Of a stretch of DNA of 37,643 nt, positions 1,789 through 35,665 are shown piece after piece. The DNA is from Sulfurovum sp. (GTDB taxonomy: Bacteria; Campylobacterota; Campylobacteria; Campylobacterales; Sulfurovaceae), in assembly GCA_026982075.1 (NCBI GenBank), contig JALSHU010000103.1, forward strand, positions 1-37,643, written 5' to 3'. The position numbers and the translations under genes were made by a program. How positions within the stretch are numbered: position 1 is the stretch's first letter; every line of letters begins with the position of its first letter. Under the pieces are notes generated by a model. The model was not told the origin of the DNA. It made no database searches and saw only the letters and a list, made by a program, of their open reading frames with translations.

Positions 1789-2814
1789 TTGAAAAAATTA
1801 TTATTAATAGGTCCATTATCAAATAAGCATGATGCAACAAATACAGGTGGTGTTACTATACTGTTTGAGTTGTTATTATTAGAATTAAAACAAAAAAGAA
1901 TTGAATATGATGTGATTGATACATTAAAAGATAATTATCCTAATCCTGCTATAGCTTTTTTTTCTTCTTCTCTTCAGCTAATAAAAAAATTTAAAAATTA
2001 TGATTATATTTCCTTACAAGCTAGCAATAATAGTTTATTATTTTTAGGCCCACTTGTTGTTTTGTTATCAAAAATACATAAAAAACATATAAGTATGAGA
2101 AAGTTTGCTGGAAATTTAGATGACATCTATGAAAAATCTAATTTTTTAAAAAAATTAATTATTAAGTATGTATTGAAAAATATGGATATAAATTTTTTTG
2201 AAACAAAATATTTAATTAAATATTTTTATCAAATGAACGATAAAATCTATTGGTTTCCTAATGTTAGACAGCAATTAGTAGTTCCTCAAATACCTCGTAC
2301 ATTTAATAAACGTTTTGTTTATATAGGCACAATTAATCAAGAAAAAGGAATAGATGAAATTATTTTTATTGCAAAAAAACTAACCAGTGATTATACGTTA
2401 GATATATACGGACCAATACGTGAGAGCAGGTATTCTAAAAAAATATTTTCTGATCAAAATGTGAATTATAAAGGTCCTTTGGCCCCAGATACTGTGACAA
2501 ATGTTTTAAATACATATGACGTATTAATCCTACCGTCATATAGAGAAGGTTATCCTGGTGTTATTATTGAGGCTTTTTCATTAGGTATGCCAGTTATTGC
2601 TACAAGGCTTAAAGGTATTATGGAGATGATTACTCATAACGTGAATGGCTTATTGATTGATACTAAAGATAGTCATCAACTTTTGAGTGCAATTGAATCC
2701 ATTAATAATCAATCTTATTTTGATTTATCTACAAATGCTTTAAGTTCCTTTTCAAATTTTAATAGTGAAGAACAAACAAATTTATTTTTGAAAAGGATTG
2801 GTATTGGTATTTGA
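1789..2814 (+). CDS. Glycosyltransferase family 4
   Basis: A 341-residue GT4 protein. The N-terminus (KKLLLIGPLSNKHDATNTGG) is the typical first beta strand and glycine-rich loop. Residues ~175-340 form the donor-binding half: RFVYIGTINQEKGIDEII, then YREGYPGVIIEAFSLGMPVI with the E-x7-E pair, then GLLID. The start is TTG at 1789 with a TAAGG Shine-Dalgarno at 1776-1780; no closer ATG exists. Base composition is even more A/T-rich than the rest of the window, with many poly-A and poly-T runs, as is common in surface-polysaccharide loci. Its 3' end overlaps the next gene by about 11 bp, suggesting translational coupling. Sugar specificity is unknown. Confidence 0.87.
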   Translation: MKKLLLIGPLSNKHDATNTGGVTILFELLLLELKQKRIEYDVIDTLKDNYPNPAIAFFSSSLQLIKKFKNYDYISLQASNNSLLFLGPLVVLLSKIHKKHISMRKFAGNLDDIYEKSNFLKKLIIKYVLKNMDINFFETKYLIKYFYQMNDKIYWFPNVRQQLVVPQIPRTFNKRFVYIGTINQEKGIDEIIFIAKKLTSDYTLDIYGPIRESRYSKKIFSDQNVNYKGPLAPDTVTNVLNTYDVLILPSYREGYPGVIIEAFSLGMPVIATRLKGIMEMITHNVNGLLIDTKDSHQLLSAIESINNQSYFDLSTNALSSFSNFNSEEQTNLFLKRIGIGI

Positions 2815-4387
2815 TGTATGTTATGTTTTGCGATTATTTCAAACAATTTATTATTTAAAAAGAAAACAAATTAAGTATAGGATATATTATATATTTCGTA
2901 ATAAATGGCGAAAGCTATACCATTATAAATATCCACTTACTTTACAATCACATGCTGAAGTTATTCACTTGGGTACAACAATAGTCTCAAATGCAATATA
3001 TAAGAATAATACATTTATTTTTTTAAATTGTAAGTATAAAGTTGATATAAATATAGATTGGGACTATGCTAAACATGGAAAACTTTGGACTTATAACCTT
3101 ACATACTTTGATTATTTACAGCAAGAGGAAATGACTGAAGATGAAGGAGTATCGTTTATATATGACTTCATGGATCAGATAGAAAAAGTGAGAGATGGTA
3201 TGATGCCATTTCCCATTTCTTTACGAGGTATGAACTGGATTAAGTTTTTGTCACAGCATCAAATAGAAGATCAAAAAATTGATGATTCTCTTTATGCCCA
3301 ATATCATAAACTTATGGATAACATCGAATACCATATACTTGGTAATCATCTTTTAGAAAATGGTTTTTCATTACTGTTTGGTGCTTATTATTTTCAAGAT
3401 GAAAAGTTTTATGATAAAGCAAAAAAAATACTGACAGAAGAACTAGAAGAACAAGTTTTAAAAGATGGTGCGCATTTTGAACTGAGTCCTATGTATCATC
3501 AGATTATGCTTTTTAGAGTACTTGACTGCATAAATTTACTTCAAAACAATGACTGGAAAGAGCAAGAGTTACTTGCACTACTCACGCATAAAGCAGAAAT
3601 AATGCTTGGCTGGTTACATACTATGACGTATGCAAGTGGTGATATCCCATTGTTAAATGACAGTACAAACAATATAGCACCAACTACAGATGACCTTAAC
3701 AAGTATGCACTAAGGCTAGGCATACAAAAGAGGCTATTAGCACTAAATGACTGTGGTTACAGAAAAGTGAAAAATGAACGTTATGAGTTGGTGATGGATG
3801 TAGGTAATATAGGACCAGATTACATACCTGGGCATGCACATAGTGATACTTTTAACTTTGAGTTATATGTTGATGGACAACCATTTATAGTCGATACAGG
3901 ACTTTCTACCTACGAAACAAATGCTAGACGTACCTTGGAACGCTCTACTGCATCACATAATACTGTAGAGGTAGGTGGCGTAGACCAAAGTGAAGTATGG
4001 GGTGGATTTCGGGTTGCTAAACGAGCTAAGATTATTTACTTAGATGAAAATAACAATGAAATCAAAGCCACGCATGATGGATATAAGCGAATAGGTGTAT
4101 TACATACACGAAAATTTATGACTTTTGATGAAACTATAGTGATAGAAGACTCTATTGAATGTTCAGGAAAACATCAAGGTATTGCCTATATACATTTTTA
4201 TCCAGGATTACTACCAAAAATTAAAGACAATAAGATTATAATCCTAGATAAGCATATCGTCATTGACAATGCTGAAAGTATAAAGATAGAAGCGTATCAT
4301 TATGCACCAGAATTTAATAAGCTCATGAGTGCGTATAAAATTAAAATAAATTTTACAGATTATTTAAAAATGGAGATAAAAATTTGA
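2804..4387 (+). CDS. Heparinase II/III-like polysaccharide lyase family protein
   Basis: About 527 residues. The N-terminal 'LRLFQTIYYLK' followed by an all-alpha toroid region, and the C-terminal beta-sandwich with 'PGHAHSDTFNFELYVDGQPF' and 'RSTASHNTVEVGG', match the heparinase II/III family, including the His-rich catalytic region. Such proteins often sit inside exopolysaccharide biosynthesis operons, where they are thought to trim or edit the uronic-acid-containing glycan. There is no signal peptide, so export or a cytoplasmic role is unclear. Start choice: TTG at 2804 has AAGGA at 2792-2796 with 7-nt spacing. The in-frame TTG at 2798 is too close to that site, and TTG 2828 also fits homology but lacks a ribosome site. 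It overlaps the upstream GT gene, and its TGA overlaps the next TTG start (TTGA). Confidence 0.82.
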   Translation: MVFDVCYVLRLFQTIYYLKRKQIKYRIYYIFRNKWRKLYHYKYPLTLQSHAEVIHLGTTIVSNAIYKNNTFIFLNCKYKVDINIDWDYAKHGKLWTYNLTYFDYLQQEEMTEDEGVSFIYDFMDQIEKVRDGMMPFPISLRGMNWIKFLSQHQIEDQKIDDSLYAQYHKLMDNIEYHILGNHLLENGFSLLFGAYYFQDEKFYDKAKKILTEELEEQVLKDGAHFELSPMYHQIMLFRVLDCINLLQNNDWKEQELLALLTHKAEIMLGWLHTMTYASGDIPLLNDSTNNIAPTTDDLNKYALRLGIQKRLLALNDCGYRKVKNERYELVMDVGNIGPDYIPGHAHSDTFNFELYVDGQPFIVDTGLSTYETNARRTLERSTASHNTVEVGGVDQSEVWGGFRVAKRAKIIYLDENNNEIKATHDGYKRIGVLHTRKFMTFDETIVIEDSIECSGKHQGIAYIHFYPGLLPKIKDNKIIILDKHIVIDNAESIKIEAYHYAPEFNKLMSAYKIKINFTDYLKMEIKI

Positions 4388-5598
4388 AATTACTTTTTCT
4401 ATCAGACAACTTTCCACCAGAGAGTAATGCACCAGCAAGTAGAACCTATGAACATTGTAAAGAATGGGTAAAAGAGGGTATTGACGTAACAGTGATTACA
4501 TGTAATCCAAATTTTCCTTTTGGAAAAACCTATGATGGATACAAAAATAAGTTATATCAAACAGAAGAAATAGATGGTATCAAAGTGATAAGAGTATGGA
4601 GTTATATGACGGAGAACAAAGGTGCCATTAAACGTATATTAGATTATACAAGTTATGCGGTTATGGCATTTTTTGCTGGGTTATTTGTGAAGACAGATCT
4701 TATTGTTGCCACTTCTCCACAGTTATTTACTGCTCTTGGGGGTTGTGCTTTGGCAAAAGTACGTAGAAAACCATGGATCTTTGAACTTAGAGACCTATGG
4801 CCTGAGGGCATTAAAGATACAGGTGCCATAAAAAATAAAAAAATATTAAACTTTTTAACCAAGATGGAAATGTGTCTGTATAGACAGGCAACACATATTG
4901 TAGCAGTAACAAATGGGCTAAAAGAAAACCTTTCAAGTCGAGGCATTGATACTGATAAAATAGATGTTGTCACCAATGGAGCAAACTTGGAACTTTTTCA
5001 AGCAAAAGAGAAAAATAAAGAAATTCTTAGTTCATTAGGACTGGAAGATAAATTTATTTTTGGATACATTGGAACACATGGGCTTGCGCATGGTTTAGAA
5101 TTTATTATTGATTGTATAAAAGAAATAAAAGATGAAAAGATACATTTTTTATTTATTGGTACAGGAGCAAAAAAGCAAGCTACCGTTACATTAGCTGAAA
5201 AACTAGGTTTAAAAAATGTTACATTTCTTGACCCTGTTTTAAAAAATGAAGTGGTAGAATACATCTCTATCATTGATGTTGCTTTGGTACCATTAACGAA
5301 AACAGATATACATGCTTCATTGATACCATCAAAAATTTTTGAATCTGCCTCGATGCGCAAACCCATTTTACTGGGTGTAGAGGGTGAAGCAAAGCAAATT
5401 ATTGAGACACATAATGCTGGTATGGCATTTGAACCGGAAAACAAAGAAGCATTTCTTACGGGTGTCGATAGATTGGTTCATGATGAAGTGTATTACCATG
5501 CATTACAAAATGGTTGTGACACACTAGCGGAGCACTTTAGTAGAAAATCATTGGCATCAAAAATGCTTCAAGTCTTACATGAAATTAGTAAGAAGTGA
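4384..5598 (+). CDS. Glycosyltransferase family 4, WbuB-like
   Basis: A 404-residue GT4 enzyme. The N-terminal FLSDNFPPESNAPASRTYEH is the hallmark opening of the WbuB group (first strand, PPE loop, acceptor-side helix). The middle carries IFELRDLWPEG, also typical of WbuB, and the C-terminal half has FGYIGTHGLAHGLE and SLIPSKIFESASMRKPILL in the E-x7-E position. WbuB of E. coli O26 transfers N-acetyl-fucosamine; here the sugar is not inferable. Start TTG 4384 has GGAG at 4372-4375 and overlaps the heparinase stop by 4 bases (TTGA). WbuB-type transferases next to heparinase-like genes are a common arrangement in exopolysaccharide loci. Its own stop overlaps the acetyltransferase start (GTGA). 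Confidence 0.88.
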   Translation: MKLLFLSDNFPPESNAPASRTYEHCKEWVKEGIDVTVITCNPNFPFGKTYDGYKNKLYQTEEIDGIKVIRVWSYMTENKGAIKRILDYTSYAVMAFFAGLFVKTDLIVATSPQLFTALGGCALAKVRRKPWIFELRDLWPEGIKDTGAIKNKKILNFLTKMEMCLYRQATHIVAVTNGLKENLSSRGIDTDKIDVVTNGANLELFQAKEKNKEILSSLGLEDKFIFGYIGTHGLAHGLEFIIDCIKEIKDEKIHFLFIGTGAKKQATVTLAEKLGLKNVTFLDPVLKNEVVEYISIIDVALVPLTKTDIHASLIPSKIFESASMRKPILLGVEGEAKQIIETHNAGMAFEPENKEAFLTGVDRLVHDEVYYHALQNGCDTLAEHFSRKSLASKMLQVLHEISKK

Positions 5599-6176
5599 AG
5601 ATGATTGACAAAGAGACTATTGAGAAAAAAAGTCAAGAGAGCCAACTTGACAGTAAAGAAAAAATTGTAATAATTTTAAAGTCTATTTTTACGCTAGATT
5701 TCCCTAAATCATTGTTTTCATCATTTGCACATTATCTCTTTGAACATGTATTTTGGAAAACACAGATACACCATAAAGGGATCTACCGCATTCACCCTAA
5801 AGCCTCAGTTCGTAATGCACACAATATATATCTAGGGTATGATGTTAGAATTACGCTTAACTGTATTATATGGGCAGGTAAACACGCAAGGATTACTCTA
5901 GGTGATAATGTACTCATCGGACCTGGAGTACAGTTGCATGCTACCAATCATGGTTATGCATTAGAGAATGGTCCTATGACCTATCAAGATAGAGTAGAAA
6001 AAGATATTGTTTTAGGTAATGATGTTTGGATTGGAGGAAATAGTATCATAACAGCCGGTGTAAAATTGGCAGATGGTATTATTGTGGCTGCTGGGTCTAC
6101 TGTGACAAAATCATTTGAAGAAAAAAACATTATCATTGCTGGTGTTCCTGCAAAGAAAATTGCAGAAAGGAAATAA
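5595..6176 (+). CDS. Left-handed beta-helix (hexapeptide repeat) O-acetyltransferase
   Basis: A 193-residue protein with hexapeptide repeats from about residue 75 to the end. LGDNVLIGPGVQLH, the NHGY segment with the likely catalytic His, VLGNDVWIGGNSIITAGV, and the terminal AAGSTVTKS...AGVPAKKI cap are all typical of the maltose/galactoside/NodL acetyltransferase fold. It would transfer acetyl from acetyl-CoA to a sugar, here presumably during glycan decoration (inference from operon context). The N-terminal ~60 residues form an extra charged/helical region. Start GTG 5595 overlaps the previous stop by 4 bp; ATG 5601 is an equally possible start. The following gene begins directly after the stop (TAA 6174-6176, ATG 6177). 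Confidence 0.87.
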   Translation: MKMIDKETIEKKSQESQLDSKEKIVIILKSIFTLDFPKSLFSSFAHYLFEHVFWKTQIHHKGIYRIHPKASVRNAHNIYLGYDVRITLNCIIWAGKHARITLGDNVLIGPGVQLHATNHGYALENGPMTYQDRVEKDIVLGNDVWIGGNSIITAGVKLADGIIVAAGSTVTKSFEEKNIIIAGVPAKKIAERK

Positions 6177-7040
6177 ATGAATATATTAACTTTTGATATA
6201 GAAGATTGGTTCCATATCTTAGACAATGAATCAACTAAGTCGGAAAAACAATGGAAAAATTTTGAGAGTAGACTAGAACATAATATGGATAAAATTTTTA
6301 AATTGTTAGATGATAATAAGCAGGATGCTACATTCTTTTGCATCGGCTGGGTAGCGCGAAATCATCCTAAAATCATAGAAAAAATTGATGCTCTTGGGTA
6401 TGAGGTCGCAACACATTCTGACTTACATCAACTGGCTTATGAGTTTGATAGGGAAGGGTTTAAAAATGATTTAGAAATGTCTATAAAATCATTGGAAGAT
6501 ATTATCGGAAAAAAAGTAACTACTTATAGAGCACCAGGATTTTCTGTCAAAGAAGAGAATTTATGGGTTTTTGATGAACTTTTAGAATTTGGCATAGAAA
6601 AAGACTGTTCCGTTTTCCCTGCTAAGAGGTCACATGGTGGGCTTGAAAAATTTGGATATGCTCAACCGGCGTATATTAAAAGAGAAAAAGGAAGATTAAA
6701 AGAATTTCCTATAAACACGTATAATATTTTTGGAAATAATCTAGTATTTTCTGGTGGAGGGTATTTTAGACTTTTCCCTTACCCTGTACTTAAGTATTTT
6801 ATGAATCGATCTGATTATGTTATGACATATCTACATCCAAGAGATTTTGACCCCGAACAGCCCATGCTTGAAGGTTTGTCAGCATTTAGACGTTTTAAGT
6901 CTTATTATGGTTTAGATACAAGCTTGGAAAAACTTGAAAAGCTTATTCAAGATTTTCATTTTATAAGTTTAAAAGAAGCAGATCAGAGCATCGATTGGTC
7001 AAATGCTAAAACGATTAGACTAGATGGTGCAGGTGTATGA
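6177..7040 (+). CDS. Polysaccharide deacetylase (DUF3473-type C-terminus)
   Basis: A 287-residue NodB-fold deacetylase. LTFDIEDWFH carries the metal-binding D-x-E-D-W variant, ATFFCIGWVA follows, then THSDLHQL supplies the H-S-x-x-H metal ligands, and TYRAPGFSV is the R-x-P-x-F/Y motif. The C-terminal GGGYFRLFPYPVLKYF, TYLHPRDFDPEQP and the RFKSYYG region resemble the DUF3473 tail found in deacetylases of XrtA/PEP-CTERM-associated exopolysaccharide clusters. The expected reaction is removal of N-acetyl groups from a glycan. There is no signal peptide. AAAGG at 6166-6170 precedes the ATG. It overlaps the following gene by 4 bp (ATGA). No exosortase is visible in this window. Confidence 0.9.
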   Translation: MNILTFDIEDWFHILDNESTKSEKQWKNFESRLEHNMDKIFKLLDDNKQDATFFCIGWVARNHPKIIEKIDALGYEVATHSDLHQLAYEFDREGFKNDLEMSIKSLEDIIGKKVTTYRAPGFSVKEENLWVFDELLEFGIEKDCSVFPAKRSHGGLEKFGYAQPAYIKREKGRLKEFPINTYNIFGNNLVFSGGGYFRLFPYPVLKYFMNRSDYVMTYLHPRDFDPEQPMLEGLSAFRRFKSYYGLDTSLEKLEKLIQDFHFISLKEADQSIDWSNAKTIRLDGAGV

Positions 7041-8071: not shown

Positions 8072-9559
8072 TTACTTAGCCTTTACAGTATTTGGAAGTG
8101 TGATTACTTTTGGGTTATTTGTATACTTATCAGTCGTAAATGTATAGTCATTTGTATGACCCGCTGCTTCTCCCGTAGTATACTCATTACTATTGTCCTT
8201 ATATATACCTCCTGTATTGTTTGTTAAAACTTGATTATCAGGGGAGTTTATACCAATATTATTTGTGACAATCATTCCACTACCATTTGTGGATAAGCGT
8301 AAATATGAATTGCGTGCATTTACAATTACATTATCTGTGATACTTATATTATTACTTTCTGTAATCTGAAGTGCATAGTTGGATGTGCTACCACAATCTT
8401 GAATAATATTTCTTTTGATTTCACCATCATACATTGACCATTTCGAATTTTGTTTATCTGCTGCAACAATCCCACTAGGAGCATCAAATATAACATTATC
8501 ATTGAATTTTGTATTACCTATACCATAGTGTATAACGAATGCATGTCCGGGATCACTTAAGTAACTATCTGTAGAGTCTGCTTTACGAAATCCCCAAAAA
8601 TGATTGTTTGTTATAATCATTGGATTAGATACATTTGTAGAACCTGCTTTTATATCTAGAGCATTTTCAGCATAGGCGTACGAGCCATTTGGGTCATATT
8701 TTCCATTTCCATTTGTATATATGTTTGAATCTATATATATGTCATTTCCATCTATAATCGTTCCCTCGGCATTCCCTTCTTGATAATCACCATCAGATTT
8801 TTTAGCCAATACAATTTGCATACCGTCATTTGCATTTACTATTTCATTATTAATGATTTTTGTATTTTTAATACTCCAACTATCTGCAGACCACTCAAAA
8901 AATGATATAGCTGGATTATCGTAAATTCGACCACTATGTGTCATATTTTGAAATCGACTATTTTGAATAGTATTATCATTTGCATCTGCATTAATTGCAA
9001 TACTTGTTATGATATTATTAGTAAAAATTCTATTAAAAATATTGTTACTGGAACCAGTCCTTAATCGAAATGCATAAGTTGCTCCATTGTCGATTGAAGA
9101 AGCTCTATCAATTATCCAGAAGCTTGCGTTATTAAAATCAAGTGCAAAATTAGCTAGTTGATTTTTATTCAGTTTCCCTGGGTGCGTATCATTTCCATTA
9201 TTAAGTACAATATACCGTCTTTTTGCATCTGTACCACTTCTTGTTAAGCGTATGTTACCTAGTGCTGTATAGTCGCCAGGTGAAACACAAAAGATACGTT
9301 TACTACTATCATTAATCTTACTCCAGTCTGAGTTGTTATTGATAAAGTGCACTTCAGGGTTAGAAGCATCACATGCTGGAAGATTTACTGTTTCCAGGTA
9401 GGTACTTGGCGTTGATGGAACAGGAGCAGTGACTCCGGGTTGGGTAGGTGTAGTCGTTTCGAAATTTTCTGCATCCACAAGTCCGTCACGTGTCATGACA
9501 AACTCTATCGCCATTAATGCCGTTAGTGGAAGCATAAGTAATAAAATCATTTTTTTCAT
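8072..9559 (-). CDS. Secreted right-handed parallel beta-helix protein
   Basis: A 495-residue protein with a Sec signal peptide (KKMILLLMLPLTALMA), then a Pro/Thr-rich linker (~residues 35-55), then a long run of Asn-rich coils with repeated I-x-x-N, N-x-I and IITNN units from ~110 to ~460, which is the signature of pectate-lyase-like beta helices. The early segment FCVSPGDY...RSGT recalls the first turn of beta-helix polysaccharide lyases of the chondroitinase B type. No catalytic Lys/Arg pair can be assigned confidently, so it may be a lyase or a binding/structural protein. ATG 9559 has AAGGA with 8-nt spacing. It lies 20 bp after the lipoprotein gene and should share its riboswitch-controlled transcript. 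Confidence 0.8.
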   Translation of the reverse strand: MKKMILLLMLPLTALMAIEFVMTRDGLVDAENFETTTPTQPGVTAPVPSTPSTYLETVNLPACDASNPEVHFINNNSDWSKINDSSKRIFCVSPGDYTALGNIRLTRSGTDAKRRYIVLNNGNDTHPGKLNKNQLANFALDFNNASFWIIDRASSIDNGATYAFRLRTGSSNNIFNRIFTNNIITSIAINADANDNTIQNSRFQNMTHSGRIYDNPAISFFEWSADSWSIKNTKIINNEIVNANDGMQIVLAKKSDGDYQEGNAEGTIIDGNDIYIDSNIYTNGNGKYDPNGSYAYAENALDIKAGSTNVSNPMIITNNHFWGFRKADSTDSYLSDPGHAFVIHYGIGNTKFNDNVIFDAPSGIVAADKQNSKWSMYDGEIKRNIIQDCGSTSNYALQITESNNISITDNVIVNARNSYLRLSTNGSGMIVTNNIGINSPDNQVLTNNTGGIYKDNSNEYTTGEAAGHTNDYTFTTDKYTNNPKVITLPNTVKAK

Positions 9560-9579: not shown

Positions 9580-10755
9580 TTAATTTTCAACCACATCACC
9601 AGAGACGACTGCAGCAATAGTGTTGTTGTAGCTGGCACCAAATTTATCCTGGTAATCATAGGCAGTAAGCTCAAAGTCCTCACCAGGGATGACTTTGAGT
9701 TCAAAGATACCATTTTCATCTGTTGTTAGGTCAGAACTTACCCAGTTTTTACCTATAGCATAGACTCTTACATTACCGATTGGTGCACCCTTTTCATCAA
9801 TGATACGACCAATGTAAATACCTGGGTCTTCCTCTAAAGGTTTATTTAAAGCCCATGTACCAAGACGAGATATCTCACCTCTATACGTACCATCTTCTTG
9901 TAACTGTGCATATCCTTCTTCTATCCATAGTCCCTGATTATAGTCATAATACCACATAGGAATAGTATCCAAGTTTACTGAAGAGGGAACATAATTAAAC
10001 TTTAGTGTACCTATTTCATCCTTAGCAAACTCTAATGTATTCCCATTACTATCTTCAAGTAAGAGACTAATAAGCCCATAAGACTCAAACTGGACTATGT
10101 CTCCATTACTATTGATACCTTTAAACGAACCTGTAAAAAGTGTTTTACCTTCAACGGTTGTAAGATCGAGTATTGTTAATTCTGCAGACATAGTACCATT
10201 ATATGGATTCCCATTGTTATCTACATATGTGGCATCAACATCAATAGTTTCCCCAAACAACGCTTTATTGCTCTCATGTTCCCAGCTATATTTATGTGTT
10301 CGCAGTTTATATTCAAGGTAGTTAGGAGAGAGAGTATTATCTTCTGCTAATCTTTTTATTTTAATCACGGTACTTCCTAGAAGATATCCCTCTTTTTCAA
10401 AATTAACAACCACTTCTTTATTGGCTGTAAGATTGCTCAAGATATAGTATCCTTCTGAATCTGTAGTAGTACTCTCATCTCCTATACTTACTTTTACATT
10501 TACAAGAGGTTTCCCTGTTGCATTATCAGTGATTTGTCCACTTTGTATGGCTTTGCTTGAAGGGTTTGTGATAGCTATCGTACCTGTTTCTGTGGTGGAT
10601 GATACTACACTAGTTGTTTCAGTAGTAGATGATACTACACTAGTAGTTCCTACAGTAGATATATTATCACTAGCACCACCTCCTCCACAAGCTGTAAGTA
10701 AAAAAATAGCTGTAGTAAGTGCAGTTATATGTTTGATATTCGCTAATAGAGACAT
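9580..10755 (-). CDS. Lipoprotein with carboxypeptidase-regulatory-like domains
   Basis: About 391 residues. The lipobox LLTAC is followed by GGGG, predicting lipidation at Cys23. A Ser/Thr linker holds a perfect 10-residue tandem duplication at residues 37-56. A carboxypeptidase-regulatory-like (CarboxypepD_reg) domain spans ~60-125 (GQITDNATGKPLVNVKVSIG, then TDSEGYY). A second similar domain lies near the C-terminus (GRIIDEKGAPIGNVRVYAIG, TTDENGIFEL). The middle is a beta-rich region of unknown type. Start: GTG 10764 overlaps the AAGG Shine-Dalgarno (10764-10767), so ATG 10755, eight bases downstream of it, is preferred. Likely a surface or periplasm-facing structural lipoprotein; its partner may be the beta-helix protein encoded next. 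Expression is probably set by the upstream tandem riboswitches. Confidence 0.82.
   Translation of the reverse strand: MSLLANIKHITALTTAIFLLTACGGGGASDNISTVGTTSVVSSTTETTSVVSSTTETGTIAITNPSSKAIQSGQITDNATGKPLVNVKVSIGDESTTTDSEGYYILSNLTANKEVVVNFEKEGYLLGSTVIKIKRLAEDNTLSPNYLEYKLRTHKYSWEHESNKALFGETIDVDATYVDNNGNPYNGTMSAELTILDLTTVEGKTLFTGSFKGINSNGDIVQFESYGLISLLLEDSNGNTLEFAKDEIGTLKFNYVPSSVNLDTIPMWYYDYNQGLWIEEGYAQLQEDGTYRGEISRLGTWALNKPLEEDPGIYIGRIIDEKGAPIGNVRVYAIGKNWVSSDLTTDENGIFELKVIPGEDFELTAYDYQDKFGASYNNTIAAVVSGDVVEN
10588..10647 (-). repeat. In-frame 30-bp tandem duplication in lipoprotein linker
   Basis: Two copies of a 30-bp unit encode the ten-residue TTSVVSSTTE twice, just after the lipidated Cys of the lipoprotein gene. 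The shared nucleotide core is gatgatactacactagt, spaced 30 bp apart. Copy number changes would lengthen or shorten the linker without a frameshift. Confidence 0.85.
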
Positions 10756-10767
10756 GGTATTCACCTT

Positions 10768-10799
10768 AGTTTAAATTTTTAGGATGTTATATTTAAACT
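10768..10799 (-). promoter_or_regulatory. 9-bp inverted repeat abutting the lipoprotein Shine-Dalgarno
   Basis: Perfect inverted repeat (10768-10776 with 10791-10799, AGTTTAAAT/ATTTAAACT) around a 14-nt loop. On the minus-strand transcript its 3' arm ends directly at the AAGG ribosome site (10764-10767). It is placed where a hairpin could influence translation initiation of the lipoprotein. It is A/T-rich and therefore only moderately stable. Confidence 0.5.
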
Positions 10800-10867
10800 C
10801 GTGGAAGCGAAGAGATGTTGGCAAAGCTTTATTTATCCAATTGCAATAAATACTCTCATGAGAGATT

Positions 10868-10899
10868 CCAAACAAACCAATAGATTTCAATTTGTTTGG
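10868..10899 (-). promoter_or_regulatory. 9-bp inverted repeat directly downstream of proximal riboswitch (expression-platform candidate)
   Basis: Arms CCAAACAAA (10868-10876) and TTTGTTTGG (10891-10899) are perfectly complementary with a 14-nt loop. On the minus strand the 5' arm begins at the very end of the proximal aptamer and shares at least one base with its conserved GGTTGCC 3' edge, so aptamer closure and this hairpin may compete. No U-tract follows, so it is not a standard intrinsic terminator. A 12-bp palindrome (CTCTCATGAGAG, 10853-10864) follows. Confidence 0.5.
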
Positions 10900-10970
10900 G
10901 CAACCTGGCTGTCTCCCAAGAGACCCGTGGCTTTCCGTACTCCGCTTCACAACGGGTTTGGCAATAACAG
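10899..10970 (-). ncRNA. c-di-GMP-I (GEMM-I family) riboswitch, gene-proximal copy
   Basis: Read on the minus strand, this segment has the GEMM aptamer landmarks in order: TTGCCAAACC, a short stem CCGTT/AGCGG closed by a GTGA (GNRA) tetraloop, TACGGAAAGCCACGGGTCTC, a second stem GTCTC/GAGAC with a TTGG loop, and AGCCAGGTTGCC. GEMM-I aptamers bind c-di-GMP; a minority (GEMM-Ib) prefer 3',3'-cGAMP, and that choice cannot be settled here by eye. It is the second of two tandem copies in the leader of the lipoprotein/beta-helix operon, about 145 nt upstream of the ATG. Confidence 0.88.
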
Positions 10971-11030
10971 TAATAATATATATGAAAAAGGTTCATTCAA
11001 GAAAGAATGTACACCAAATTTACATTTGAT

Positions 11031-11104
11031 GGTAACCCGGCTGTCTCTCAAGGAGACCCGTGGCTTTCCGTCCCTACTTCACAGTAGGTTTGGCCTTATT
11101 ACAT
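11031..11104 (-). ncRNA. c-di-GMP-I (GEMM-I family) riboswitch, promoter-proximal copy
   Basis: On the minus strand: AAGGCCAAACC, a 6-bp stem CCTACT/AGTAGG closed by a GTGA (GNRA) tetraloop, GGACGGAAAGCCACGGGTCTC, a stem GTCTC/GAGAC around CTTGA, and AGCCGGGTTACC. This is the textbook order of GEMM-I (c-di-GMP class I) motifs, including the tetraloop and its receptor side. It is more canonical than the downstream copy, which is separated by about 60 nt. It lies just downstream of a plausible promoter (11114-11154), so it would be the first structure transcribed. Confidence 0.9.
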
Positions 11105-11113
11105 AACAGCAAC

Positions 11114-11154
11114 ATTCTAACATAAAAATAATTAAAAAATGTCAAAAATGTCAA
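11114..11154 (-). promoter_or_regulatory. Putative promoter of the riboswitch-led operon
   Basis: On the minus strand two overlapping-spaced TTGACA-like hexamers (11149-11154 and 11140-11145, direct repeat AAATGTCAA in plus orientation) precede an A/T-rich stretch and a -10-like TAGAAT (11114-11119). The expected start near 11107 falls right at the 5' edge of the distal riboswitch, which supports the call. The spacing from the nearer TTGACA is about 20 nt, longer than ideal. Confidence 0.45.
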
Positions 11155-11238: not shown

Positions 11239-12309
11239 ATGAAAATATCTCATATTTATACTACTACCTTAAAAGCACCACTTAAAACACCTTTCATTAC
11301 TTCCTTACGACGTGTAGATACACTTGAAGACTTAGTAGTGATTATTGAATGTGATGATGGGAATATAGGTATAGGAGAAGGTGCACCTACTCCTGTCATT
11401 ACGGGAGAAACCATGGGGTCAATGATAGCATGTATTGAGTTTGTTAAACCACATATTTTAGGAAAAGAAATAGAAGACTTTGATACTATCATTTCGCTAG
11501 TTCACACACTCATAGTAAAAAACACAACTGCAAAGTCTGCCCTTGAAATAGCACTATATGATTTAAAATCAAAGTCGAAAAAACTTCCTTTATATCGTAT
11601 GTTGGGTGGTAAAAAAACCATATTTTCTACAGATATAACCATCAGTATGGGTGAAATAGACAAAATGATAGCTGACAGCCATGAAGCTGTTGCCTTAGGC
11701 TATGATACACTTAAAATAAAAATAGGTGAAAACCCTAAAAAAGATCTTGAACGGGTAGTAGCCATACACCAATCTTTAGATAAAAATATAAAGTTAAGAC
11801 TAGATGCTAATCAAGGGTGGTCTGCAAAACAAAGCGTTACATTCCTTCATGCATTGGAGAGACAAAATATCATAGCAGAGTTCATAGAACAACCTGTAGC
11901 CGCGGATGATATTGATGGTTTAAAACATATTAAAGAAAGAGTACAAACACCTGTGCTTGCTGATGAAAGTATTTTTTCGCTAAAAGATGCCCGTAGACTC
12001 CTAGAAATGCAAGCTATTGATTATGTAAATATAAAACTTGCTAAAACTGCAGGTATTACGTATGCATTGAAACTTGCTGATGTAGCTCATGAATTTAATG
12101 TAAAATGTATGATTGGATGTATGCTCGAAGGTCCTATCTCTGTAGCTGCAGGGGTACATGTAGCTTCTGCAAAAGCAGATATCATTACAATGATTGATCT
12201 TGATGCTGTGAGCCTTTTGGCATCTCATAGGGTACAAACAAGTATACAATTTGACGAAAGTACTATTATACTTTCAGATAGCTATGGGCTAGGAGTAAGC
12301 TATTCATGA
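11239..12309 (+). CDS. Dipeptide epimerase (L-Ala-D/L-Glu epimerase type), enolase superfamily
   Basis: A 356-residue mandelate-racemase/muconate-lactonizing-type protein. The N-terminal cap has TSLRRVDTLEDLVVIIE and GEGAPTPVITGET. The barrel has catalytic Lys in TLKIKIG (K-x-K), metal ligands in RLDANQGW (Asp), FIEQPV (Glu) and LADESIF (Asp), and the opposite-face Lys in VNIKLAKTAGI. This residue set matches AE epimerases (YcjG/YkfB), which convert L-Ala-D-Glu from murein peptides to L-Ala-L-Glu in the cytoplasm. ATG 11239 lacks a strong ribosome site; a TATGAT at 11191-11196 could be its -10. It overlaps the kinase gene by 4 bp (ATGA), and an NlpC/P60 murein peptidase lies two genes on, fitting muropeptide recycling. 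The exact dipeptide substrate is inferred. Confidence 0.88.
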   Translation: MKISHIYTTTLKAPLKTPFITSLRRVDTLEDLVVIIECDDGNIGIGEGAPTPVITGETMGSMIACIEFVKPHILGKEIEDFDTIISLVHTLIVKNTTAKSALEIALYDLKSKSKKLPLYRMLGGKKTIFSTDITISMGEIDKMIADSHEAVALGYDTLKIKIGENPKKDLERVVAIHQSLDKNIKLRLDANQGWSAKQSVTFLHALERQNIIAEFIEQPVAADDIDGLKHIKERVQTPVLADESIFSLKDARRLLEMQAIDYVNIKLAKTAGITYALKLADVAHEFNVKCMIGCMLEGPISVAAGVHVASAKADIITMIDLDAVSLLASHRVQTSIQFDESTIILSDSYGLGVSYS

Positions 12310-13631
12310 ATACACTAGAAGCATTAAGATTAGGGAAACTTAAAGGCAGTAAAAAACTTAAATTAGCCTGTGGTCTTAAAATATTTCCAAAAGAGATTTT
12401 TGATTTATCTGAAACCCTCGAGATACTAGATTTAACAGATAATGCACTTTCTGATTTACCCCATGATTTTCATAAACTCAAAAAGCTCAAAATTCTTTTT
12501 TTATCTAATAATTTGTTTAGAGAAGTTCCTTCAATACTTGCCAAGTGTACCAATTTGACCATGATTGGTATACGAAACAATCAAATCAATGTATTAAAGG
12601 AAAATGTACTTCCTCTCAATATTCGTTGGCTTATACTCACAGACAATAACCTAAAAAAATTGCCTGACTCACTAGGAAACCTTCAATATTTACAAAAATG
12701 TATGCTCTCTGGTAATCGATTAGAAAGTTTGCCCCAATCCCTCTCAAACTGTAAAAATCTTGAGTTACTACGTATCTCTTCCAATAAGCTCACAAAACTT
12801 CCTATATGGCTATTACAGTTGCCAAAACTCTCTTGGTTAGCCTATAGTGGCAACCCTTTTTGTGCAAAACACCCCTCTTGTGATACCCCAATAGATGAAG
12901 TTTTATGGGAAAATTTAAAGATAGAAGAAAAATTAGGTGAAGGTGCATCTGGAGAGATTTACAAAGCCATTTGGAAAGACGAAGAAGTTGCCCTAAAAAT
13001 TTTCAAAGGCTCTATGACCTCTGATGGACTACCCCAAGAAGAAATGGATATCAATATTTCTATGGGAAAACACACACACTTAATAGATGTACTCGCCCGC
13101 GTAACAGGTCATCCTGAAGGAAGAGATGTTCTCATGTTAGAACTGATACCTTCAAAGTTTTATAATTTAGGACTACCTCCTTCACTTGAAAGTTGTACCC
13201 GAGATATATATCCTAAAGATTTTGAATTAAATATTGCCACGAGTATCAAAATTTTAGTTGCTATGGCATCAGCAGCTCTTCATATGCATCAAAGAGGTAT
13301 CATGCACGGAGACTTTTATGCACACAATATTTTAATAGACCAAGAAGGTCATAGTATTCTTGGAGATTTTGGTGGTGCTTCATATTATGAACCTAAAGAA
13401 AAAGAAATTCGTGATGCACTAGAACGTTTAGAGGTACGTGCTTTTGGATGTTTAATCGAGGAGTTTCTTCTTCTTTCTCAAAAAGATACTACCTTAGATA
13501 CATTAAAAACAAAACTTGAACAAATAAAAGATGCTTGCCTCTCAAATCCTAATTCCAGACGTCCGCTCTTTCAAAGTATTTATAAAGATATACATTCTCT
13601 CTACACAAAAAGTACACTGAATTTTAACTAA
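12306..13631 (+). CDS. Leucine-rich repeat protein with Hanks-type protein kinase domain
   Basis: A 441-residue fusion. Residues ~35-195 hold about seven leucine-rich repeats (LEILDLTDNALSDLP, LKILFLSNNLFREVP, LRWLILTDNNLKKLP-like units). Residues ~205-430 form a small protein kinase: glycine loop LGEGASGEIYKA (~210), VALKIFK with the ATP-anchoring Lys (~230), catalytic loop MHGDFYAHNILI (~333), and LGDFGGA (DFG, ~355). The catalytic Asp and Asn are present; HRD reads HGD. There is no signal peptide or membrane segment, so it should be cytoplasmic. It overlaps the epimerase gene by 4 bp and precedes the peptidase gene by 34 bp. The domain order LRR-then-kinase is known in scattered bacteria, but the substrate and ligand here are unknown. 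Confidence 0.85.
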   Translation: MNTLEALRLGKLKGSKKLKLACGLKIFPKEIFDLSETLEILDLTDNALSDLPHDFHKLKKLKILFLSNNLFREVPSILAKCTNLTMIGIRNNQINVLKENVLPLNIRWLILTDNNLKKLPDSLGNLQYLQKCMLSGNRLESLPQSLSNCKNLELLRISSNKLTKLPIWLLQLPKLSWLAYSGNPFCAKHPSCDTPIDEVLWENLKIEEKLGEGASGEIYKAIWKDEEVALKIFKGSMTSDGLPQEEMDINISMGKHTHLIDVLARVTGHPEGRDVLMLELIPSKFYNLGLPPSLESCTRDIYPKDFELNIATSIKILVAMASAALHMHQRGIMHGDFYAHNILIDQEGHSILGDFGGASYYEPKEKEIRDALERLEVRAFGCLIEEFLLLSQKDTTLDTLKTKLEQIKDACLSNPNSRRPLFQSIYKDIHSLYTKSTLNFN

Positions 13632-33832: not shown

Positions 33833-35665
33833 ATGCATCAAAACAACCATATATTCGCATATATTATCAAGTTTGCATTGCTATTTTTTACCCTATTCCT
33901 TTTTACCTCTACAGCTGTATCAGCGAATTCTAACGTAGTCGTGACAGATGATACATCATCCTACACTGATTTTAAAGTAGATTATCTTATCGAAAAGCCA
34001 AACCAACTACTCACTATAGAAGAAGTTTCTACATTACCATTTACAAAACATACAAACAATGCTTTTAGTTTTGGTTACAAAAAAAATAACTTTTGGTTTC
34101 GATTTACTATTCAAAACAACTCAAACCATGAAAAAGATATGGTTTTGGAACTTACTGAAGTCATTCATAAAACAGTTGACCTCTATGTTGTCTCAGATAC
34201 CATCGTACATCAAAAAAATGGTTTACGTATTCCCGTGCAAAACCGTGAAATAAAAGAATCTACACCCTCTTTTCCGCTACATTTAAAAGCAGGAGAACAT
34301 AAAGAAATATATCTGAAAGTTGCAACTATATATGGTCTTTTTGGCGCCATTCATCTAAAAACAGAAGAACAATATCAAAAAGATATACAACTGAAAAAAT
34401 ACCTTTATCTTGCATATTTTTCGGGGATACTCATGATTATGTTCTATAATATTGTGATTTTTCTATATTTGCGAGATAAAATGTATTTTTATTATATTTC
34501 ATATGTATTTGTTTTCATGCTTTGGGCTGCCAACTTTAAAGGTATTTTACTCCCTTATACAAATATAGAAATATATAATTTATTACAAATGACCATTCCT
34601 ATCTTTTTTACTTTACTGATACTTTTTTCACAATCTATTTTAGAAACAAAAAAATACTTTATACGATTACATAGAATACTCAATGGTTTTATAGTTGTTT
34701 GTATAGTCACATTAATTTGGATGTCTATATCTATAAAGAGTGGTTTTTATTTTATGAATATTGTGGCTACACCCCTGTTACCATTTTTATTAATCGTGGC
34801 CATTTGGGCCTTATATAAAAAACATACGATTACTAAAATATATCTTCCCGCACTCACTGTCTATATCCTAGGTATGATTCTACTCAGTTTAATGGCTATT
34901 GGTATATTACCCTATACTGTTGAGCTGAGTCATGCTGCTATGATTGGGGCTATTTTTGAAATAGTTCTTTTCTCACTTTTACTTGCATACCGCATCAGTA
35001 TTGTACGTAAAGAATCCCTAGAAACACGTGAACAACTTTTAAAGCAACAAAAAACGGAGAGTACACGCCTTTTTCATGCCGTTGCTGAAAAAACCATGGC
35101 ATTAAATCTAGCAAAAAAAGAACTTGAAGAAGAATTAGCCAAAAAAATTGCTTTGGAAAAACATTTAAAACACCTGGCATCTACAGATCCGCTTACAGGG
35201 CTCTATAACAGACGTGCCTTTTTTGATATATGTGACGTAGAAATGAAAAATGCAAGAACTGATAACACACAACTTACATGCCTCATTATTGATATTGATC
35301 ATTTTAAACATATTAATGATACCTATGGACATGATATCGGAGATAAGGTTATTTCAACTCTAGCGAAATTAATGATTGATAACACGAGAACTATGGATTA
35401 TATAGGAAGAATTGGAGGAGAGGAATTTGCCGTCTTGATGCCAAATACAGATATGGATTCGGCTTTTCAAATCGCTGATAGGTTAAGAGAAAATATTGCA
35501 AAAAATGAAATAATACTAAATCCAAGTGTTATTTCTATATCTGTAAGTATTGGGTTAAGTTATTTAACACATGAAGATAAAAATATACATACACTTCTTA
35601 AACGTGCAGATACTGCCTTGTATGAGGCAAAAGAAAATGGTCGTAATCAGGTTTGTTATCTCTAG
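33833..35665 (+). CDS. Diguanylate cyclase with 7TMR-DISM sensor (DISMED2-7TM-GGDEF)
   Basis: A 610-residue membrane sensor. A signal peptide (ends ~VSA, residue 32) is followed by a periplasmic 7TMR-DISM extracellular-type domain (~35-185, with FSFGYKKNNFWFRFTIQN), then seven membrane helices (~195-395), a coiled coil (~400-450, LAKKELEEELAKKIALEK) and a GGDEF domain (~450-610: STDPLTGLYNRRAF, IIDIDHFKHINDTYGHDIGD). The active-site motif is GGEEF at ~528-532, a functional variant, and an intact inhibitory I-site RTMD lies five residues upstream (519-522). It makes c-di-GMP from GTP in response to an unknown periplasmic or membrane cue, with product feedback. AAGGA precedes the ATG. It is monocistronic after a terminator. 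Confidence 0.93.
   Translation: MHQNNHIFAYIIKFALLFFTLFLFTSTAVSANSNVVVTDDTSSYTDFKVDYLIEKPNQLLTIEEVSTLPFTKHTNNAFSFGYKKNNFWFRFTIQNNSNHEKDMVLELTEVIHKTVDLYVVSDTIVHQKNGLRIPVQNREIKESTPSFPLHLKAGEHKEIYLKVATIYGLFGAIHLKTEEQYQKDIQLKKYLYLAYFSGILMIMFYNIVIFLYLRDKMYFYYISYVFVFMLWAANFKGILLPYTNIEIYNLLQMTIPIFFTLLILFSQSILETKKYFIRLHRILNGFIVVCIVTLIWMSISIKSGFYFMNIVATPLLPFLLIVAIWALYKKHTITKIYLPALTVYILGMILLSLMAIGILPYTVELSHAAMIGAIFEIVLFSLLLAYRISIVRKESLETREQLLKQQKTESTRLFHAVAEKTMALNLAKKELEEELAKKIALEKHLKHLASTDPLTGLYNRRAFFDICDVEMKNARTDNTQLTCLIIDIDHFKHINDTYGHDIGDKVISTLAKLMIDNTRTMDYIGRIGGEEFAVLMPNTDMDSAFQIADRLRENIAKNEIILNPSVISISVSIGLSYLTHEDKNIHTLLKRADTALYEAKENGRNQVCYL

Follow-up and report, generated by a model that had tools for sequence, protein, structure and literature searches.

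Two c-di-GMP-I (GEMM-I) riboswitch aptamers stand in tandem on the minus strand of a Sulfurovum sp. contig, in the leader of an operon for a lipoprotein and a secreted beta-helix protein. The observation is confirmed within the window, which is the whole stretch of DNA analyzed (37,643 nucleotides), and its explanation as two complete c-di-GMP-I riboswitches in series controlling both genes is modestly favored overall. The pair is a further case of the already published tandem c-di-GMP-I riboswitches; the new points are its conservation in Sulfurovum and the strong link of tandem pairs with lipoprotein genes. The two aptamers and the genes behind them are as follows.

11027 to 11103, minus strand: copy 1, c-di-GMP-I aptamer identified by Rfam, with G20 at 11094, A47 at 11067 and C92 at 11032.
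10896 to 10972, minus strand: copy 2, c-di-GMP-I aptamer (RF01051), with U18 at 10964, G20 at 10962, A47 at 10934 and C92 at 10900.
9583 to 10755, minus strand: lipoprotein of 391 aa with the lipobox LTAC and CarboxypepD_reg (carboxypeptidase-regulatory-like) domains.
8072 to 9559, minus strand: right-handed beta-helix secreted protein of 495 aa (AlphaFold2 pLDDT 90.5).

In the Rfam search of the window, copy 1 (11103-11027) matches RF03167, c-di-GMP-I-GGC, with 64.4 bits (cut-off 59, E 3.8e-13), and in the search of the whole assembly it matches RF01051 with 65.3 bits at 11104-11028 (cut-off 35). Copy 2 (10972-10896) matches RF01051 with 48.4 bits (cut-off 35, E 1.3e-6), its RF03167 score of 44.8 bits lying below the cut-off of 59. 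The sequence-only reading had described two GEMM-I copies in tandem on this strand, ahead of a lipoprotein/beta-helix operon, and had proposed an RF01051 search as the check: both copies exceed that threshold, the landmarks agree with the description, the Rfam bounds place the copies 54 nt apart, and the lipoprotein (10755-9583) and beta-helix (9559-8072) genes follow the leader. Its span of 10899-11107 holds both aptamers, short of the final 3 nt of copy 2. The first-stem tetraloop is GUGA, a GNRA loop, in both copies, and no further Rfam family reaches its gathering threshold in the window. The assembly carries 6 RF01051 aptamers per 1.64 Mb, a density at which, by our own arithmetic, two aptamers would fall less than 200 nt apart with a chance of about 0.004.

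Of 78 genomes in the genus (this one included), 72 carry RF01051, as do 60 of 120 sampled genomes of the family, 15 of 200 of the class and 0 of 14 control genomes. For closer comparison, 100 stretches were taken around listed RF01051 matches (the best ~150 of 531), and nhmmer (E<=1e-3) on the retrieved loci, with L063-L065 excluded, yielded 179 unique aptamers from 64 genomes. These include 25 tandem pairs, defined by a distance below 400 nt and spread over 19 genomes, each pair with at least one member among the best ~150 of 531 matches, a selection that biases the tandem share. Orthologous leaders in three other genomes (G026, G009 and G008) have the window's pair in common, with a likeness to the window's copies of 0.86-0.97 for copy 1 and 0.86-0.96 for copy 2; copy 1 and copy 2 within a genome resemble each other at 0.79 in the window, 0.82 in G026, 0.76 in G009 and 0.90 in G008. 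Because orthologous copies are mostly closer than the copies within one genome, the window-type pair probably predates the four strains. At other tandem loci the two copies range up to identical, and such near-identical pairs may be recent or homogenized.

The pocket residues G20, A47 and C92 and the pair C44-G83 are intact in both window copies by alignment (C44 and G83 read by numbering), C44-G83 being what we take to be the interhelical C-G pair. Excerpts from PMC4744006 name G20, A47, C92 and an interhelical C-G pair as contacting the ligand. The examined part of PMC9481103 gives A in place of this G as the mark of c-AMP-GMP aptamers, and that of PMC7288161 reports cGAMP binding by a G20A mutant. 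Position 20 is G in 177 of the 179 aptamers, A in one and C in one; both window copies have G, and the A20 of c-AMP-GMP (GEMM-Ib) aptamers is absent from both. The G20/A47/C92 triad reads GAC in 174 aptamers, GAT in 3, CAC in 1 and AGC in 1. RF03167, the best clan match of copy 1, differs by a G in the model's A47 column. That G presumably accounts for the "GGC" of its name. It is found in neither window copy, both having A there, and copy 1 reads GGAAA against the RF03167 consensus GCGAA. As copy 1 lacks a G at 47, the RF03167 label is no evidence of another ligand, and copy 1, having A47, is filed by its sequence under the ordinary RF01051 pocket. Both copies are predicted to bind c-di-GMP.

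A device with two inputs, in which each copy would sense a different ligand, is accordingly a very improbable reading of a pair with identical pocket residues. Its appeal lies in the bases ahead of the first landmark, AAGG in copy 1 and ATTG in copy 2 (positions 17-20), and in two other tandem loci whose first copy carries U92 (G035) or the AGC triad (G017). The copies differ at 18-19, with A17 and G20 unchanged; at position 18 copy 1 has A and copy 2 has U, and of the 179 aptamers 144 have A there, 25 have G, 9 have U and 1 has C. The sequence-only reading had suggested that these bases might alter ligand preference or affinity: with the pocket intact in both copies a differing preference is unsupported, and a difference in affinity is possible, copy 2 having the rare U18. 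U92 occurs in the aptamers G035:C136:21353, G043:C212:5617 and G002:C1:625910 and the AGC triad in G017:C67:29207; the odd aptamers of G035 and G017 each stand first in a tandem pair and are followed by a GAC copy, and these two loci may be mixed-ligand tandems. Positions 21 and 46 pair as C-G in 174 of the 179 aptamers and as G-C in the model consensus, a flip also seen in pattern-picked aptamers from other genera of the class (L176-L179, L181 and L182; at L180 and L183 the pattern gave chance matches alone, and at L184 none).

The leader is predicted to contain the following structures downstream of the pockets.

11012 to 11031, minus strand: hairpin 1, 8 bp, beginning at C93 on the 3' side of P1 (-5.9 kcal/mol).
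10985 to 11015, minus strand: weak terminator-like element, GGTGTACATTC..GAATGAACC and then TTTTT (-5.7 kcal/mol in the window).
10868 to 10899, minus strand: hairpin 2, 13 bp, beginning at C93 of copy 2, with no U-tract after it (-11.1 kcal/mol).
10854 to 10865, minus strand: small hairpin 3 (UCUC/GAGA), from RNAalifold, with one pair changed on both sides and one broken in one orthologue.
10761 to 10810, minus strand: hairpin GUUUAAAU/AUUUAAAC with UCGCUU pairing the Shine-Dalgarno sequence AAGGUGA, from the RNAalifold consensus.

Behind each window aptamer there is thus a hairpin at C93 that overlaps the 3' side of P1, which argues for two switches. Each of the four orthologues has a hairpin at the start point of hairpin 1, with arms that differ, by eye, in G009 and G008 and stay paired there. 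Across the four orthologues 96.2% of the hairpin 2 cells are paired; one pair has a two-sided change, two have one-sided changes and one is broken in 2 of the 4. Over the whole counted structure three two-sided changes are seen, a number reached by 33 of 500 shuffles. Since hairpin 2 shares merely 1-3 nt with P1, it need not exclude P1. In copy 1, P1 is weak, as A14 and C93 do not pair. The terminator-like element overlaps hairpin 1 by 4 nt and has a block, GAATGAACCTTTTTCATAT, identical across the four loci; it reaches -4 to -5 kcal/mol in G026 and G008 and falls below threshold in G009, and a simple terminator scan of the leader found none. Hairpin 1 and the terminator-like stem are both missing from the RNAalifold consensus of the four leaders, in which the flank of copy 1 and its G20 pair with a stretch far downstream. 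The consensus hairpin at 10761-10810 could possibly sequester the Shine-Dalgarno sequence; the pairing involved (UCGCUU/UCACUU) has two pairs broken in G008, one of the four orthologues, and the inner stem of the hairpin is invariant.

Structure immediately behind the aptamer is also found across the genus. At 179 sites the RNA just after C92 is more stable than its dinucleotide shuffles by a mean of -1.68 kcal/mol (s.e. 0.18, offset -2), a signal that vanishes by +22 (+0.03); weaker dips of about -0.5 at +40 to +52 and -0.75 at +142 to +148 were counted against it. At 131 non-redundant sites the 8 nt after C92 are complementary to the stretch 13-60 nt on at 4.52, versus 4.20 in shuffled and 4.06 in partner-swapped sequences (p 0.004 and p 7e-5, respectively). 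At these sites a Rho-type C-rich element was also considered: the C/G ratio is 1.3-1.7 over the 60 nt that follow C92 and 0.85-1.06 beyond them. Hairpins of -4 kcal/mol or lower that begin at 92-98 follow 16/25 first copies, 10/25 second copies and 47/125 singles; control windows shifted 60 nt downstream give 1, 4 and 27. Terminator-like elements, defined as a hairpin followed by a U-run, occur behind 22/102 non-redundant singles versus 5/102 control windows (p 7e-4), and behind 8/25 first copies (control 1) versus 1/25 second copies (control 0; p 0.02), a contrast that in non-redundant counts is 5/14 versus 1/13 (p 0.16).

In the proposed mechanism, transcription would start at one promoter ahead of copy 1 and run through both switches, ligand binding would firm P1 and disrupt the hairpin at C93, and the operon would be released solely when both copies are occupied, making the response steeper. 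Double gating is likely in this outline, its mechanism being hypothetical; that high c-di-GMP would turn the operon ON is guessed from the nature of its target, a surface protein. Through its terminator-like element (11015-10985), copy 1 would probably act on transcription, and copy 2 would probably affect how the transcript folds near the ribosome-binding site. A weak terminator-like element behind copy 1 and none behind copy 2 make a transcription-then-translation pair possible, and because the RNAalifold consensus lacks hairpin 1 and the terminator stem, this two-stage reading is put forward as a hypothesis. The more specific version, a lipoprotein-specific tandem with copy 1 on transcription and copy 2 on translation, perhaps with the linker AACCUUUUUCAUA pairing the 5' flank including G20, is tentative and rather doubtful.

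The plainer arrangement, in which both switches would work on transcription by one mechanism, is a real though minority possibility: c-di-GMP-I doublets are grouped as pseudo-cooperative in the examined part of PMC9481103, and the window has a hairpin at C93 behind both copies, but hairpin 2 lacks a U-tract and a terminator-like element follows just one of the 25 second copies.

The series reading places a single promoter ahead of copy 1, where two elements are found.

11140 to 11154, minus strand: TTGACA-N3-TTGACA direct repeat of period 9, seen in the sequence, its second copy 20 nt upstream of TAGAAT.
11114 to 11119, minus strand: TAGAAT, a -10-like box.

TAGAAT, kept in three of the four orthologous leaders and missing in G008, is likely the -10 of the operon promoter; the promoter scan's own pick is the nearby TATTTT. 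TTGAC repeats of period 9 lie upstream of 5/25 first copies (window, G026, G009, G044 and G035; not G008), 0/25 second copies and 2/129 singles, with at most 0.05 expected per class. More broadly, TTGAC repeats (period 9, 10 or 11) and GTAAT boxes (period 11) precede GEMM-I leaders in the genus, and they probably serve promoters under c-di-GMP control as common binding sites for transcription factors.

If copy 2 had its own promoter in the linker, the locus would consist of two promoter-riboswitch units, and transcripts would pass either two switches or one. At other tandem loci GTAAT-N6-GTAAT stands 54 nt before G20 in 5/25 second copies, as it does in 10/128 singles (expected 0.1 and 0.2, respectively), accompanied by TATAAT 28 nt before G20, and the strongly conserved window linker contains TTGAAT-16-TATTAT. 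The GTAAT box is, however, missing from the window linker, promoter-like sites number 3 in 601 nt versus 2.3 expected, and the linker's TATTAT is merely 10 nt from G20, so that a transcript started there would lose P1; two such units are improbable. The linker as a shared promoter/operator was also considered and dropped: it has 26 matches in the 78 genomes, 4 of them exact, at the four orthologous loci, and 22 with 1-2 mismatches each.

Several pairings were tried as switching partners. In the minimum-free-energy fold of copy 1 plus linker, the 5' flank UAUG.AA.AAGG pairs the linker segment CCUUUUUCAUA in 4/4 orthologues, a pairing retained solely within the lipoprotein-specific two-stage version. 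The proposal that CUUCACAAC is a general anti-aptamer strand pairing the GUUGUGAAG stem-loop was dropped: runs of at least 8 occur at 11/173 sites versus ~2.6 expected, with 9 of the 11 from one related locus set, and 6-nt runs number 36 versus 25.9 expected, with no excess of 5- or 7-nt runs. As a chance 6-nt run falls in ~1 site in 5, finding one in the window group carries little weight. An anti-aptamer pairing anchored at G20 that uses a downstream CUUUUU was likewise rejected; it scores 5.08 versus 3.95 shuffled at 59 sites with AAAAG flanks and is absent at 70 sites with other flanks (3.20 versus 3.02, p 0.42; swap p 0.51); confined to AAAAG flanks, the signal is better read as a terminator U-tract. 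A displaced P1 behind hairpin 1 (AUGUA/UACAU, 5 bp in the window) was rejected as the main model, as it shows no genus-wide excess and has an ensemble probability of 0.00 in the four orthologous modules; analogues reach 8 bp in the first copies of G028, G029, G036 (at one of its tandem loci) and G076 (C7), and 7 bp in G075 (C8).

Lipobox proteins are encoded behind 21/24 readable tandem loci versus 16/110 single loci (Fisher p 9.6e-12), or 7/9 versus 11/67 in non-redundant counts (p 3.9e-4), with targets called by a crude gene finder and a lipobox pattern and N-termini collapsed at 40% identity for the non-redundant counts. Loci with no readable gene were dropped (1/25 tandem, G013:C19, and 19/129 singles), and some single loci were gathered through homology to the window's lipoprotein, a bias that runs against the contrast. 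The genus seems to reserve tandem pairs mainly for lipoprotein genes. Homologues of the lipoprotein (E<=1e-10) occur in 19/78 genus genomes, its own included. The beta-helix protein has no Pfam match of its own, and a search of solved structures by sequence profile gave 0 matches; PF13229 appears in 29 of 120 homologues among the matches listed (own count), and Foldseek finds PL6 alginate lyases, phage tailspikes and the adhesin PfbA at TM 0.2-0.5. A biofilm or surface role of the operon is plausible. Convergent with it on the plus strand, at 1789-7040, is a polysaccharide gene set comprising glycosyltransferases, a heparinase II/III-like protein, a hexapeptide acetyltransferase and a polysaccharide deacetylase with DUF3473. 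The window also encodes, on the plus strand, leucine-rich repeats fused to a protein kinase domain (12306-13631) and a 7TMR-DISM diguanylate cyclase with GGDEF (33833-35665), the latter counted in favor of the c-di-GMP reading.

The examined part of PMC9481103 reports 347 doublets and 12 triplets of c-di-GMP-I, classed as pseudo-cooperative, and states that bi-mechanism function of tandem arrangements has not been comprehensively evaluated. Those doublets share class and order with the Sulfurovum doublets, to which the separate expression platforms and pseudo-cooperative logic described there may also apply; the Sulfurovum doublets concentrate before lipoprotein genes. The same part describes a SAM-II/SAM-V bi-mechanism tandem, whose terminator-linked first switch and translational second switch follow the logic of the bolder Sulfurovum reading, with another ligand and other aptamer classes, whereas the second mechanism in Sulfurovum is hypothetical. 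According to excerpts from PMC4759541, a triple tandem in B. thuringiensis gives more stringent, digital control; it likewise lines up complete c-di-GMP-I riboswitches within a single 5' UTR, but has three copies in a Gram-positive organism and is experimentally shown, while the Sulfurovum pair is known by computation. A single c-di-GMP-I riboswitch with dual transcription-translation control, showing no in vivo response to c-di-GMP, is described in the seen portion of PMC11218506, and that of PMC12452182 reports tandem c-di-GMP riboswitches as enriched in Thermodesulfobacteriota and Deinococcota. "Campylobacter" has 0 occurrences in the main texts of PMC9481103 and PMC12452182, as does "sulfurovum" in the former, and searches of the CC-licensed PMC literature, judged by title, found no dedicated paper on c-di-GMP riboswitches of Sulfurovum, Campylobacterota or epsilonproteobacteria, the matches being on Leptospira and Gemmatimonadota.

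For the genus, these findings mark c-di-GMP-I riboswitches as a frequent regulator in Sulfurovum, and they raise a testable question: why a two-stage switch would serve surface proteins and not other c-di-GMP targets of the same cell.
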